Of a DNA stretch of 64,000 nucleotides, positions 5,741 to 12,401 are shown one piece after another (within the stretch, counting starts at the first letter, position 1; every line of letters begins with the position of its first letter). The translations under genes and the position numbers were made by a program. Location: contig NZ_JAGKQQ010000001.1 in the NCBI RefSeq assembly GCF_017939745.1, positions 7,703,299 to 7,767,298 on the forward strand, written 5' to 3'. Under the pieces are notes generated by a model. It saw only the letters and a program-made list of their open reading frames with translations. It was not told where the DNA came from and did no database searches. The stretch comes from Gemmata palustris. GTDB lineage: Bacteria > Planctomycetota > Planctomycetia > Gemmatales > Gemmataceae.

Positions 5741-6023
5741 CGAGAAAAGACCCTGGCGGCTCGCGTGGGGAAAGTTAACCTACTCGCGACCGGGTGCCAA
5801 ATCCACCACTCTGTTCCCGCGACTGTATATGTCAGATTGCGCGCGACGCCGAACGAACACTGCGTTGCCGCTTCCCGTTCGCGGGACGGTATTCCAGTAT
5901 ACCTGAAATGCCGAGCGCTGTTTTGGTACGGCACAGGAAGAAGCGCAGGGCTTCCGCCCTGTGCTAAAACGCCGGCCCCTCCGGGGCGAAGACGAAATAC
6001 TGCGATTCTTGTGTGTGGGAACC

Positions 6024-7325
6024 ATGCACCCCGATCTCCCGGCCCTGCTCGGTGGCACGCCCACGCGACCCGAAGGGCCACCCCAATGGCCGCTTCTCGA
6101 TGACGACGTGCGCGCCGCGGTTACAGAGGCGATGGCGACGGGCGCGTGGGGGCAGTACCACGCCGAACACGTCTGCGCGCTCGAAGCGGAACTGGCCACG
6201 TTCCACGGCGTCCCGCACGCACTCACCTGCGCGAGTGGCACGCTCGCGGTGGAGGTCGCACTTCGGGCGCTCCGTGTCGGTCCCGGCGACGAAGTTGTCA
6301 TGTCGGCTTACGACTACGAATCGAACTTCCTCACGATCCACGCGCTCGGCGCGAAACCGGTGCTGATCGACATTCACCCGCACAACTGGCAGCTCGACGA
6401 AACCAAGCTCGAAGCGGCCTTCACGCCACAAACGAAGGCCGTGCTCTGTTCGCACCTGCACGGCGGGCTTGTTTCCATGCCCGCGGTGATGGAAATTGCC
6501 CGCAAGCACAATATCGGCGTCGTCGAAGACGCGGCGCAATCGCCCGGCGCAACGGTGATCGGCAAGCCGGCCGGGACGTGGGGCGACGTCGGCACGCTGA
6601 GTTTCGGCGGCTCGAAGCTACTCACCACCGGGCGCGGCGGGGCGCTGCTGTTCAACGACGCGCAGCTTTATCAGCGCGCGAAAAACTGGCTGCACCGCGG
6701 ACTTCAACAGTGGGCGCCTCTCAGCGAACTACAAGCGGCCGTGCTGCGCCCCCAATTGCGGAAACTGCGTGCGACGACCGCGTGGCGCGCCGAGCGGGTG
6801 CGGGAGCTGGTGGCAGAACCTACCCCCCCGTCCCCCCTCCCTGAAGGGAAGGGGGAGAAAGAACTGTCGGCCGATGTCGCCTCAAGCACGGCGATTTCGC
6901 GCGCCAGCCCCCTTCCCTGCCAGGAGGGGGTCGCAGGGGAACCGTGGGGGGTTCCCCCCTCACAAGGGGCGAGGGGGACGGGGGTAGGTTCTGCGATTCA
7001 GCCCTTCGCCAACAACATCCCCGACTCGATTCCCGCCTTCTACAAAGTCGGCTTCCAGTACGCCCCCAGTATCTTCGGCCTGAAGCGCGAAATATTCGTC
7101 AAGGCGCTGCGGGCGGAGGGCGTCGCGTTCGATCCCGGCTTCAAAGCCCTTCACATCGGCCGATCGCCTTCGCGGTTCCGGGCACCGGGCGAACTCACGC
7201 ACGCCGCCGACGCACACGAGCGCTGCGTCACGCTGCACCACCCCGTTCTTTCGGGCACAACGGCCGACGTTCAGCAGGTGGCGGACGCGGTGGCGAAGGT
7301 GTATCGTTACCGGGACCGATTTTAG
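6024..7325 (+). CDS. DegT/DnrJ/EryC1/StrS aminotransferase with an internal repeat insertion
   Basis: A 433-residue PLP enzyme of the family that aminates keto-sugars or forms related amines. The substrate-binding opening is PQWPLLDDDVRAAV, ALTCASGTLAVEVAL contributes to the PLP phosphate site, VVEDAAQSPGA holds the PLP-contacting Asp, and SFGGSKLLTTGRGG carries the Schiff-base Lys at 198. The start is set at MHPDLP, since upstream in-frame residues are not family-like. Residues about 266-323 (TPPSPLPEGKGEKE... to GTGVGS) are foreign. They are encoded by an inverted-repeat element that stays in frame and sits where the family has a surface linker before the C-terminal FYKVGFQY segment. Whether the enzyme remains active is unknown. 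Confidence 0.88.
   Translation: MHPDLPALLGGTPTRPEGPPQWPLLDDDVRAAVTEAMATGAWGQYHAEHVCALEAELATFHGVPHALTCASGTLAVEVALRALRVGPGDEVVMSAYDYESNFLTIHALGAKPVLIDIHPHNWQLDETKLEAAFTPQTKAVLCSHLHGGLVSMPAVMEIARKHNIGVVEDAAQSPGATVIGKPAGTWGDVGTLSFGGSKLLTTGRGGALLFNDAQLYQRAKNWLHRGLQQWAPLSELQAAVLRPQLRKLRATTAWRAERVRELVAEPTPPSPLPEGKGEKELSADVASSTAISRASPLPCQEGVAGEPWGVPPSQGARGTGVGSAIQPFANNIPDSIPAFYKVGFQYAPSIFGLKREIFVKALRAEGVAFDPGFKALHIGRSPSRFRAPGELTHAADAHERCVTLHHPVLSGTTADVQQVADAVAKVYRYRDRF
6813..6994. repeat. 182-bp inverted-repeat element inside the aminotransferase gene
   Basis: The ends are inverted copies of each other (GCAGAACCTACCCCC at 6813 onward; GGGGGTAGGTTCTGC ending at 6994) with only C/G-run length differences. 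Inner short palindromes of the CCCTTCCCTG/AGGGGG type are present. The element keeps the host reading frame open and adds about 58 residues rich in Pro, Gly and Ser. Confidence 0.8.
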
Positions 7326-9133: not shown

Positions 9134-9871
9134 ATGGTGTTCCTGTCCCGCTTGCGCACACGCGACCGCATCCCGGAACTGATGGACGACCCCGCCATCG
9201 ATCCGGCGGAGCACCGGCGCGCGCTCGCGGGGCTGGTGCGACTGAACCGCTTCAGTAACAGTGCGGGCGTGTTGTGGCCCGCAATTGCGAACCTGTCGAA
9301 GCGGCTCCCGCGCCCGGTGCGCGTGCTGGACGTGGCGACCGGGAGCGGCGACGTTCCGCGCAAGTTACTCGCCCGGGCCGCGCGCGCCGGAACCCCGATC
9401 GAGGTCTCGGGGTGTGATGTGAGCCCCACCGCGATCGAAGAAGCCGCACGGCACCCGAGCGCCGCACGGTTCTTTGTTCACGACGCGCTGCGCGACCCAC
9501 TGCCGACCGGCTTCGATGTGGTCACGTGTTCGCTCTTTCTGCACCACCTGAGTGAAGACGAAGCGGTCGGGCTCTTCGCAAACATGAAGGCCGCTGCGGG
9601 TACGATGGTTCTGGTGAACGATTTGTTGCGTTCGCGGTTCAACTACTGTGCGGTGTGGGCCGCGTGCCGGGTGCTCGCGGGGTCGCGGGTGGTCTGGTTC
9701 GATGGCCCCGCGTCCGTGCGCTCCGCGTTTACGCCGGCCGAAGCGCTCGCGATCGCCGAACGCGCGGGGCTCCACAGCGCGACCGCACGCCGCAAGTTCC
9801 CCTCGCGCTTCTTGTTGTCCTGGAGCCGCCCGGATGAAAACTCGGAATCCGAAACTCGAAATCCGAAATGA
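9134..9871 (+). CDS. SAM-dependent methyltransferase of the type III PKS cluster
   Basis: A 245-residue class I methyltransferase. Motif I is VRVLDVATGSGDVPRKL, the acidic residue ending strand 2 is in SGCDVSPTAIEEA, and motif IV is FDVVTCSLFLHHL. The start is the ATG at 9134, matching MVFLSRLRTRDRIPELMDD. It is the first gene of a tight set with a flavoprotein and a type III polyketide synthase, which suggests methylation of a phenolic polyketide. Streptomyces SrsB does this in the srsABC phenolic-lipid operon. The last about 12 residues (DENSESETRNPK) are encoded by the left arm of an inverted repeat and are unlikely to be part of the ancestral protein. Confidence 0.85.
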   Translation: MVFLSRLRTRDRIPELMDDPAIDPAEHRRALAGLVRLNRFSNSAGVLWPAIANLSKRLPRPVRVLDVATGSGDVPRKLLARAARAGTPIEVSGCDVSPTAIEEAARHPSAARFFVHDALRDPLPTGFDVVTCSLFLHHLSEDEAVGLFANMKAAAGTMVLVNDLLRSRFNYCAVWAACRVLAGSRVVWFDGPASVRSAFTPAEALAIAERAGLHSATARRKFPSRFLLSWSRPDENSESETRNPK

Positions 9872-9962
9872 AAGCACACGGCGACGGTCGGTGAACTCTA
9901 CGAGTTGCGACGATGGCGGTTTCTTTGTTCGGATTTCGAGCTTCGGATTCCGAGTTTTCATC
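9833..9962. repeat. Inverted repeat spanning methyltransferase stop and flavoprotein start
   Basis: The left arm (9833-9867) and right arm (9928-9962) are reverse complements at 34 of 35 positions, with a 60-base spacer. The left arm encodes the end of the methyltransferase, whose TGA falls at 9869-9871. The flavoprotein ATG lies at 9913 in the spacer, and the right arm encodes its residues 6-16 or so. In RNA this would form a long hairpin around the second gene's start region. Confidence 0.9.
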
Positions 9963-11091
9963 GTTTGATGCGGTGGTCATCGGCGCCGGCCCCGCGGGGG
10001 CGGTGGCCGCGCGCGAACTGGCGCGGCGCGGGTGCTCGGTGCTGTTGGTGGATAAGGCGCATTTCCCGCGCCCGAAGGTGTGCGGGTGCTGCATCAACGG
10101 CGCCGCGACCACCGTACTTCTGCAACTCGGCCTCGGTCACGTTCTGGAGGCCGGCGTCCCGCTCCGCGATGTGCGCATTGGTGCCGGTCCGCGTTCGGCT
10201 TCGGTGAAACTGCCCGGCGGGGTGTCACTGTCGCGCGAAGCGTTCGACCTCGCGCTCGTGCGGGAAGCAGTGAAGGCCGGTGCCCAACTGTGCGAGGACT
10301 CGACGGCAAAATTTGAAGACTCAGGTTCGGGATACGCGAAGGTGAGCGTGCGGAAGCAAGCCGCGCCCGGCAATGAATCGGCGGAAACAATTCACGCGAA
10401 GGTTGTCATCGTCGCCACCGGGCTTGTGGGGAGCGATGCGATTCCAGAAGCCGGTTCGCGCATCGGGGCGGGTGTGGTCGTTTCCGCGGATTTGGTGCCG
10501 GCACACTTCACGGCCGGCACGATCTTCATGGCCACGGGGCACGGAGGATACGTTGGCCTGGTGCGCATCGAGGACGGACGGCTCGATGTGGCCGCGGCGT
10601 TCGACGTCGCATTCGTGAAGGCGCACGGGGGGCTCGGTCGTGCGGCCGAGGGTATCCTGAACGAAGTGGGCTGGCCGCGTGTGCCGGGACTCGCGGAACT
10701 CCCCTGGAAGGGCACGCCGGCGCTGACCCGCCGGGCGAAAGCGTTAGCCGGCGAGCGCTGGTTCGCCATTGGCGACGCGGCGGGCTATGTTGAGCCGTTC
10801 ACCGGCGAGGGGATGGCCTGGGCGATCGCCTCCGCCGCGGCCGTTGCGCCGATCGCGGCACGAGCTGTGCAACGCTGGAGCGACTCGCACGCCCGGGAGT
10901 GGCAAGCGGCCCATCGCCGCGTAATCGGGGCGCGCCAGCGCGCGTGCCGGATCGTTTCGCGCGTGCTGCGCTCGCCCGCACTTACTGGGGCCGTCGTGCG
11001 CGCGTTGTCCGTGTTCCCGGTGCTCGCGCGCCCGGTCGTCAGGTCTCTCAACCGTTCTTCTGGTTCGTTCCCTCACGGTGCCCGCGTATGA
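9913..11091 (+). CDS. FAD-dependent oxidoreductase of the type III PKS cluster
   Basis: A 392-residue flavoprotein of the geranylgeranyl reductase / aromatic hydroxylase type. The Rossmann dinucleotide motif is DAVVIGAGPAGAVAARELA, followed by LVDKAHFPRPKVCG. The second FAD motif is WFAIGDAAGYVEPFTGEGM. In the comparable Streptomyces srsABC operon a flavoprotein (SrsC) hydroxylates alkylresorcinols, so a similar tailoring step is likely here. The first about 17 residues before FDAVVIG come partly from a repeat arm, so the native start may have been lost or moved. Its TGA overlaps the next gene's ATG by 4 bases (11088-11091), indicating translational coupling. Confidence 0.87.
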   Translation: MAVSLFGFRASDSEFSSFDAVVIGAGPAGAVAARELARRGCSVLLVDKAHFPRPKVCGCCINGAATTVLLQLGLGHVLEAGVPLRDVRIGAGPRSASVKLPGGVSLSREAFDLALVREAVKAGAQLCEDSTAKFEDSGSGYAKVSVRKQAAPGNESAETIHAKVVIVATGLVGSDAIPEAGSRIGAGVVVSADLVPAHFTAGTIFMATGHGGYVGLVRIEDGRLDVAAAFDVAFVKAHGGLGRAAEGILNEVGWPRVPGLAELPWKGTPALTRRAKALAGERWFAIGDAAGYVEPFTGEGMAWAIASAAAVAPIAARAVQRWSDSHAREWQAAHRRVIGARQRACRIVSRVLRSPALTGAVVRALSVFPVLARPVVRSLNRSSGSFPHGARV

Positions 11092-12401
11092 GCTTCGCGA
11101 TTCACGGCCTCGGCATCTCGCACCCGCCGGACGCCGTGACCGCGGAGGAGGGGCTCGCGCTCGCTCGCGTACTCGCGGGGCCGGACGTTCGCACTTCGAC
11201 TTGGCTCGGGCCGATCTATTCGGGTAGCGGAATCCGACAGCGCTTTCAGATCATCGGCGGCGCTGCGAAGCGCGACGCACTGGCGGGTACGAATCACAGC
11301 GGGTCGCCGTTCCTACCCACACCGGGCAACGAGGGCGTCGGCCCGACGACCGGCGAACGACTGGCGATCTACGCACAAGAGGCCGGGCCGCTCGCTCTCC
11401 GGGCTTCGGCGAGCGCCTTGGCCGAAAGCGGATTCGCGCCGGAAACGATCACGCACCTTGTCACGGTGTCGTGTACCGGGTTCGTGGCTCCGGGCGTGGA
11501 TTTCGCGCTGATGGCCGGGTTGGGACTCAAGCCGACGGTCGCGCGCACACACGTCGGGTTCATGGGGTGTCACGGCGCGCTGAATGGGCTGCGCGTGGCG
11601 AACGCCTTCGCGAGTTCCGATCCGTCTGCGCGCGTGCTAGTGTGTGCAGTGGAACTGAGCAGCCTGCACTACTACTACGGTAGCGCTGCGGACAAACTGA
11701 TTGCCAACGCGATCTTCGCCGACGGCGCCGCGGCCGTGGTGGGGAGCGAGCAGAGAGAAGAACCTAACCCCCTAACCCCCTTCCCTAAGAAGGAAGGGGG
11801 AACCGAACCGAAGACGGTTTTAAGCCCCTCTCCGTTTAGGGGAGGGGTTGGGGAGGGGTTACGGGCCGAACCTAACTCCCTAACCCCCTTCCCTAGGAAG
11901 GAAGGGGGAACAGAACCTTCGGTGGTTTTAAGCCCCTCTCCGCTTAGGGGAGGGGTTGGGGAGGGGTTCATTCCCCGCCCCTGGTCCCTCGTCGCGTCCG
12001 GTTCGTGCCTCATCCCGAATTCTGCCGCCGACATGAGCTGGACGGTCGGCGACCACGGGTTCGAGATGTCGCTGTCGCGCCGCGTGCCGGGGCTGATCGC
12101 CGCGCACCTCAAGCCGTGGATCGAGTCGTGGCTCGGTGACAACGGGCTGTCACTCGCGGACGTGCGGAGCTGGGCCGTTCACCCCGGCGGGCCGAAGATC
12201 GTCAGCGCGGTGGAGGAAGCGCTCGGCCTTTCGGCGGAGGCGCTCGCCCCGTCGCGCGGGGTGTTCGCCGAGTACGGCAACATGTCCAGTCCGACCGTGC
12301 TGTTCATCCTGCGCAAGTTGCGCATGGAGGGCGCGCCGCGGCCGTGTGTGGCGCTCGGCTTCGGGCCGGGGCTGGTGGCCGAGGCCGCGCTCTTCGTGTG
12401 A
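11088..12401 (+). CDS. Type III polyketide synthase (chalcone/alkylresorcinol synthase-like) with repeat insertion
   Basis: A 437-residue homodimeric condensing enzyme that would extend an acyl-CoA with malonyl units and cyclise the product. The catalytic Cys161 is in GFMGCHGALNG, His365 in WAVHPGGPK and Asn398 in EYGNMSSPT, so the full triad is present. The final GFGPGLVAEAALF is the family C-terminal loop. Relatives are about 350-390 residues long. The excess is residues about 225-297, encoded by two tandem copies of a 101-bp repeat, which lie between strand GAAAVVGSE and PWSLVASGS. The frame is kept and no triad residue is touched. It overlaps the flavoprotein gene by ATGA and ends convergent with the rhodanese gene. 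Confidence 0.9.
   Translation: MSFAIHGLGISHPPDAVTAEEGLALARVLAGPDVRTSTWLGPIYSGSGIRQRFQIIGGAAKRDALAGTNHSGSPFLPTPGNEGVGPTTGERLAIYAQEAGPLALRASASALAESGFAPETITHLVTVSCTGFVAPGVDFALMAGLGLKPTVARTHVGFMGCHGALNGLRVANAFASSDPSARVLVCAVELSSLHYYYGSAADKLIANAIFADGAAAVVGSEQREEPNPLTPFPKKEGGTEPKTVLSPSPFRGGVGEGLRAEPNSLTPFPRKEGGTEPSVVLSPSPLRGGVGEGFIPRPWSLVASGSCLIPNSAADMSWTVGDHGFEMSLSRRVPGLIAAHLKPWIESWLGDNGLSLADVRSWAVHPGGPKIVSAVEEALGLSAEALAPSRGVFAEYGNMSSPTVLFILRKLRMEGAPRPCVALGFGPGLVAEAALFV
11760..11968. repeat. Two tandem 101-bp repeat copies inside the type III PKS gene
   Basis: Copy 1 spans 11760-11860 and copy 2 spans 11868-11968. They differ at about 9 of 101 positions and start 108 bases apart, exactly 36 codons. 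Each contains small palindromes (CCCCCTTCCCT... AAGGAAGGGGG and CCCCTCTCC... GGGGAGGGG). Translation in the host frame gives two copies of a LTPFPxKEGGTEP... LSPSPxRGGVGEG peptide. Confidence 0.93.

Follow-up and report, generated by a model that had tools for sequence, protein, structure and literature searches.

How a biosynthetic enzyme gene can hold two copies of a repeat within its coding sequence and still be read through was the question raised by a type III polyketide synthase gene of Gemmata palustris, located at 11088–12401 on the forward strand of the window (the whole 64,000-nucleotide stretch analyzed) and encoding 437 aa. Both Pfam Chal_sti_synt_N and Chal_sti_synt_C were matched in the protein, placing it among the type III polyketide synthases, and its PDB relatives include 4b0n and 1ted (pks18). 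Cys, His, and Asn are the catalytic residues of this family; C161, H365, and N398 of the synthase are Cys, His, and Asn, respectively, so the triad is in place, with the residue numbers given correctly in an earlier note on this DNA. That note had also described two 101-nt repeats lying in frame in the synthase and lengthening it by about 72 residues, with about 92 of 101 bases alike and starts 108 nt apart. This was borne out, as a repeat search of the window found 101-nt copies at 11760–11860 and 11868–11968 with 91% identity and a start-to-start distance of 108, TRF reported on the pair a period of 108 with 91% matches, 0% indels, and a score of 355, and the synthase frame (11088–12401) is open across both copies.

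Repeat finding and A/B pattern matches resolved each copy, on the forward strand, into two halves named A and B. In unit 1 (11760–11860), the A half (11761–11801) is followed by a spacer and the B half (11825–11860), while in unit 2 (11868–11968) the halves lie at 11869–11909 and 11933–11968. Unit 1 is further marked by predicted hairpins, and 11756–11862, taken as a DNA strand, gave a predicted hairpin fold with a z of −3.04 vs. shuffles. The two units are joined by the 8-nt linker ACGGGCCG (11861–11868, forward strand), and the 108-nt period consists of a 100-nt A-B unit plus these 8 nt; linkers of 8 nt resembling ACGGGCCG are also found 3′ of B halves at other loci. Identity of the insert with a known RNA family was rejected, because an Rfam scan of 11600–12100 yielded 17 matches, 12 of them to microRNA families, and all below the gathering scores. 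In an AlphaFold2 model of the synthase (mean pLDDT 71.7), the insert forms a coil between strands 214–221 and 299–306, in agreement with the position between two core strands that had been proposed, and residues 226–230 and 234–295 have a pLDDT <50. The model suggests that the insert lengthens the loop between these core strands, in an enzyme that would presumably retain its activity.

To place the two units, A and B halves were counted across the 9.23-Mb genome (G000), allowing ≤3 mismatches. The census found 63 A and 48 B halves, while neither of the two controls, each a reversed pattern, gave any match. The halves group into 60 clusters genome-wide, mostly arranged as A-B, with A-B-A, inverted A-A, and single halves also present, and A-B-A-B in the window. 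As modelled, the A module is 41 nt and the B module 36 nt, and 38 A-B pairs were obtained, in which hairpin modules A and B, separated by a spacer of variable length, stand in inverted relation. With regard to the terminal inverted repeats and target-site duplications of MITEs, these A-B units have imperfect inverted ends (AACC...GGTT), and by eye no constant direct repeat was seen in the flanks of the 38 units. The family has one of the features by which REP/REPIN elements are recognized, namely short imperfect palindromes (20–40 nt) in high copy number, often as inverted pairs, but it is not mainly extragenic. The repeat is therefore not unique to the synthase gene, and the synthase units belong to a dispersed palindromic family.

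A search of related genomes, in line with the check that the earlier note had proposed, was then evaluated. Of 59 genomes, own genome included, 18 gave A/B matches: 14 of 19 from the same genus, three from other genera of the family (G028, G029, and G033), and, with one weak match (E 6.5e-4), a member of a different family within the class. When 294 genomes were drawn from the phylum, apparently including no same-genus genome that carries the element, the own genome was the sole match at E 1e-6, with at most three candidates scored per listed genome.

Copies inside and outside genes were then counted. In a coding-signal scan, 34 of the 60 clusters lay within open frames and had coding signal both upstream and downstream, and altogether 38 of 60 clusters were supported as genic and in frame, which for these supports the proposed insertion into genes with the frame kept. 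In detail, 34 genes were chosen for an orthologue-anchor test, both flanks were located in relatives for 28, and for 27 of these the reading frame continues through the site in one or more relatives, the exception being L083. The 11 further genic clusters comprise five DUF1549/DUF1553 paralogues, based on PSD1 being matched in two stretches (Pfam), the synthase cluster, based on its orthologues, and L102 (first cluster), L116, L073, L109, and L119, where the support comes from Pfam domains that extend over the insert or lie next to it, and is weakest for L119. Judged by Pfam domains, from which the names were inferred, the hosts include pheT, a CCA/poly(A) polymerase gene, selB, uvrA, rarA/mgsA, recD2, tilS, mfd, and queG. 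As the genic class required an open frame, copies lying out of frame within genes were detectable only in the 10 of the 22 remaining clusters that were checked for a gene split out of frame; no single gene or family was split across frames in these 10, eight having different families on the two sides (for one of them, L106, the upstream families were below the cut-off) and two lacking any family on one side. The genic share of 38/60 does not by itself show gene targeting, and none is claimed, because a simple purge model, with about 86% coding (a rough, uncomputed figure) and two of six frames open, yields about two thirds genic without targeting if every in-frame insertion survives.

Two further observations concern particular host sites. 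The DUF1549/DUF1553 paralogues L081, L082, L086, L090, and L097 carry their inserts just before PSD1 profile positions 63–66. In four of the paralogues the motif preceding the insert resembles PTHPELLDWLA, in the fifth it is LDWLA, and the insert of L081 is a B half only; these inserts may go back to one insertion copied by gene duplication or to several insertions. Cluster L087 (G000:C1:4488023-4488146) is situated in the C-terminal portion of an open frame that contains a ribonuclease P protein domain; the cluster also overlaps the beginning of a YidD frame, and it may lengthen the RnpA C terminus.

The lengths of the 38 A-B units were 99 (1 unit), 100 (12), 112 (1), 118 (2), 119 (1), 121 (4), 123 (1), and 124 nt (16). 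The multiple-of-three spacing in the synthase had been taken as a sign of selection for frame, and this holds at the level of the family, in which 35 of 38 units are 1 mod 3 in length, bearing in mind that the copies are related and do not represent independent trials; counted per distinct length the regularity is less striking, at five of eight length classes. Among the units that are not 1 mod 3, L076 and L086 are genic and L117 is without an open frame. The 119-nt unit in uvrA and the 99-nt unit in a DUF1553 gene have their halves read in different frames and the gene stays open, while the 123-nt unit, with no open frame, is located between two different genes. In addition, the same two frames, one per strand, are open in 32 of the 38 units; two open frames out of six is ordinary, as shuffled units averaged 1.90.

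Orthologous sites in four relatives were compared at 28 hosts other than the synthase, allowing ≤6 mismatches, as also in the search of the relatives' synthases. A/B halves were present at 18/28 sites in G008, 24/28 in G010, and 1/28 in G002, and at none of the 16 examined in G013. Presence and absence at orthologous sites, which is expected of elements of the type found in Rickettsia, was therefore observed, and the PheT site, occupied in G000 and without insert in G008, G010, G002, and G013, provides a clear-cut example of gain or loss. Three of 18 shared sites (L079, L113, and L118) hold the element in opposite orientation in G000 and G008, which points to repeated insertion. Where G000 and G008 both carry a full unit, just 2 of the 11 comparisons gave the copy at the orthologous site as the best match. 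G002 has at least 28 extra residues at 10 of 28 sites, but A/B halves at only one, whereas G013 has at most nine extra residues at 13 of 16. By eye, many sites without A/B carry C-type (described below) or other repeat-like peptides. Other such peptides were seen at the QueG and TilS sites L204 (G002; SEFGIRSENE...) and L217 (G013; VGSGQWTEK...), and may represent further repeat families that use the same loops. In the single-contig genome G008, 26 of 28 sites are in frame, L080 and L083 being out of frame. Of the 28 sites aligned in the draft genome G010, 19 are frameshifted or stopped, including those of uvrA, mfd, and tilS, and the G010 synthase is also shifted or stopped; runs of N occur in seven of the 19 disrupted sites, though in none of uvrA, mfd, and tilS. 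These disruptions, which weigh against the reading preferred below, are probably assembly error in hairpins, with the lack of N runs in uvrA, mfd, and tilS slightly lowering the confidence in that reading.

A second hairpin family, named C and similar in its behavior, was found in the window and elsewhere. The C pattern gave 123 hits in the genome and none in the control, with the qualification that the hairpin is nearly symmetrical and can count on both strands. Among the matches listed, 19 of 23 inverted C pairs have a spacing divisible by three; the corresponding binomial p of 1.7e-6 assumes independent copies and overstates the case. This pair count used 74 of 100 listed matches (of the 123 hits), the 26 dropped being mirror-image matches of the same hairpin and the isolated 4487992/4487995, 6009636/6009639, and 6667863. 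In the window, a pattern hit marks a C-family stretch at 6817–6990 on the forward strand (core 6834–6856), whose 174 nt, a multiple of three, lie in frame within a stop-to-stop open frame (5907–7322, forward strand) assigned by Pfam to a DegT/DnrJ/EryC1-type aminotransferase. The DegT_DnrJ_EryC1 match covers frame residues 65–298, only upstream of the stretch, which begins at residue 305, and it is from the open frame alone that the aminotransferase would continue downstream. A further repeat in the window, the 14-nt tandem repeat AAACTCGAAATCCG at 9838–9961, lies within a self-inverted stretch located where a methyltransferase frame ends and an FAD-oxidoreductase frame starts; an own-genome search with 9825–9965 returned only the stretch itself and its own inverted match (79%).

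Since the insert keeps the frame and lies between core strands, it might be a functional, conserved linker or domain of the synthase family. Orthologous synthases were compared for this. A/B DNA occurs in the loop in 6 of 19 same-genus synthases, that is, in the own genome and in G010, G008, G001, G007 (where the contig ends within the insert), and G005, and all six begin with an A half of identical orientation, which speaks for a conserved segment. However, the other 13 synthases are without A/B DNA, those of G004 and G016 having other Pro/Gly-rich residues in the loop, and 60 homologues of <65% identity have only 25–45 residues (median 29) from residue 206 to the next strand. The same peptide, moreover, recurs in unrelated proteins, and the insert is predicted to be disordered. 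On the synthase tree, four changes of the A/B label were needed, at least three of them forced by starred branches, and the label is weakly clustered (36 of 500 shuffles were as low); the changes may be gains or losses. The conserved domain was rejected on the orthologues lacking the segment and is the least probable of the readings considered. Local tandem duplication by slippage within the synthase gene, unrelated to mobile repeats, would account for the head-to-tail copies with their single period of 108. The "tandem" of the earlier note nevertheless needs correction, since the pair is not simply a tandem duplication: both copies are more closely related to units found elsewhere in the genome, and among the own-genome units the partner ranked only tied fourth of 37 in both directions. 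The dispersal of the family, the different spacers of the two units, the similar 8-nt linkers at other loci, and the presence at this site in G008 of one unit only, from a different length class (124), argue against slippage as well. Slippage was rejected, based on units that are not mutual nearest relatives and on the dispersed family, and we consider it very unlikely.

It could also be that the insert is translated in no protein, being removed or skipped by RNA processing or translational bypass to leave a synthase of normal length. The strong predicted hairpins would suit such a process, and skipping could rescue the genes with out-of-frame sites in G010, should these sites be genuine. Frame would then not matter, yet the unit lengths are frame-locked, the two genic units of odd length keep their genes open by reading their halves in different frames, and nearly all of the G008 sites are in frame; skipping is accordingly held to be highly improbable. 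The remaining alternative, a canonical REP/REPIN moved by a Y1 transposase (RAYT) of the own genome, overlaps with the reading preferred here and differs from it in naming the mover. Two inverted hairpin modules with a spacer, high copy number, and mosaic arrays are in its favor, and three Y1_Tnp genes are present in the genome. No A/B half, however, borders any of the three within the 7–10 kb searched around each at ≤6 mismatches, the only cluster in these stretches lying ~3 kb from the nearest Y1_Tnp gene. By eye, no GTAG/CGTC tag was seen at a conserved position in the matched A/B sequences and their flanks, and no target-site duplication was recognized in the flanks of the 38 A-B units. 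In addition, 38 of 60 clusters are genic, whereas most REPs are intergenic according to PMC3733652. A mover of this kind is possible but doubtful.

The likeness to the palindromic elements of Rickettsia (RPEs) suggested in the earlier note was supported. According to the review PMC10969869, RPEs are ~150 bp long, lie in frame inside unrelated genes, add a short peptide, form several families, and are also found in related species, with nearly half of them inserted in ORFs. The A/B elements are likewise palindromic and in frame inside unrelated protein genes, but they belong to another phylum, measure 99–124 nt per A-B unit, have 38 of 60 clusters genic, and differ from each other at the same protein sites in sister species; the likeness drawn here is one of mode of life. 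This mode of life has already been described outside Rickettsia. In PMC3733652, intragenic REPs of the GTAG and CGTC superfamilies are reported from Opitutus terrae, Thauera, and X. oryzae as palindromes and dimers inside ORFs, their clusters give 43–82 aa, their targets include uvrA, tRNA synthetases, and DNA repair genes, and the recB sites are about the same in two Xanthomonas species. Tagged REPs are reported there in Planctomycetes, the word Gemmata being absent from the main text. The A/B family shares with them palindromes in ORFs and overlapping target genes, and differs in that no such tag was seen and in being largely genic. With REPINs/BIMEs (see also PMC3116915), A/B shares the inverted hairpin pair with spacer, occurring singly or as mosaic arrays (A-B, A-B-A, A-B-A-B, and inverted A-A), but no RAYT was found beside its copies and it is mostly genic. 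The enterobacterial RU-1/2/3 elements, which PMC2759123 describes as small mobile repeats with open frames found intragenically, are comparable by description and come from other bacteria. A search of openly licensed papers found, among the matches listed, no description of intragenic palindromic elements in Gemmata. As the mode of life is already known, what is added here is this family, its high genic share, its frame-locked lengths, and the occupation of shared sites by different elements.

Taken together, the most likely reading of the insert is an RPE-like palindromic element that the gene tolerates, and neither a domain nor a slippage product. In full, we put a probability of about 0.83 on the two units being copies of a non-autonomous REPIN/RPE-like palindromic element that spreads in the Gemmata lineage and is tolerated in permissive protein loops. 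Each element consists of an inverted pair of ~40-nt hairpin modules, A and B, with a variable spacer; it would presumably be transposed by an enzyme acting in trans, and would be tolerated when it lands in a permissive loop. The steps between the usual A-to-B lengths of 100, 112, 118, 121, and 124 nt are multiples of three, and each strand usually has one frame free of stops, so an in-frame copy would simply add a Pro/Gly-rich, probably disordered peptide. The insert would then be translated, and its patchy presence may reflect neutrality or slight harm. A more tentative idea, which we hold to be less probable than not, is that frame-locked palindromic elements have adapted to life within coding sequence, several element families in Gemmata preserving lengths that are multiples of three and taking turns in a standing set of permissive loops. 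Such loops would serve over long times as docking sites and would supply essential enzymes with new disordered segments.

The invasion of genes by palindromic DNA, as known in Rickettsia, would be extended by these elements to the planctomycete Gemmata and its 9-Mb genome. Its several related species would offer a natural experiment on which loops can take 30–100 extra residues, in which enzymes, and how often, and the different or oppositely oriented elements at shared sites would help to separate the tolerance of a loop from a function of the insert. For annotators, some of the "Pro/Gly-rich linkers" in Gemmata proteins would be repeat-derived.
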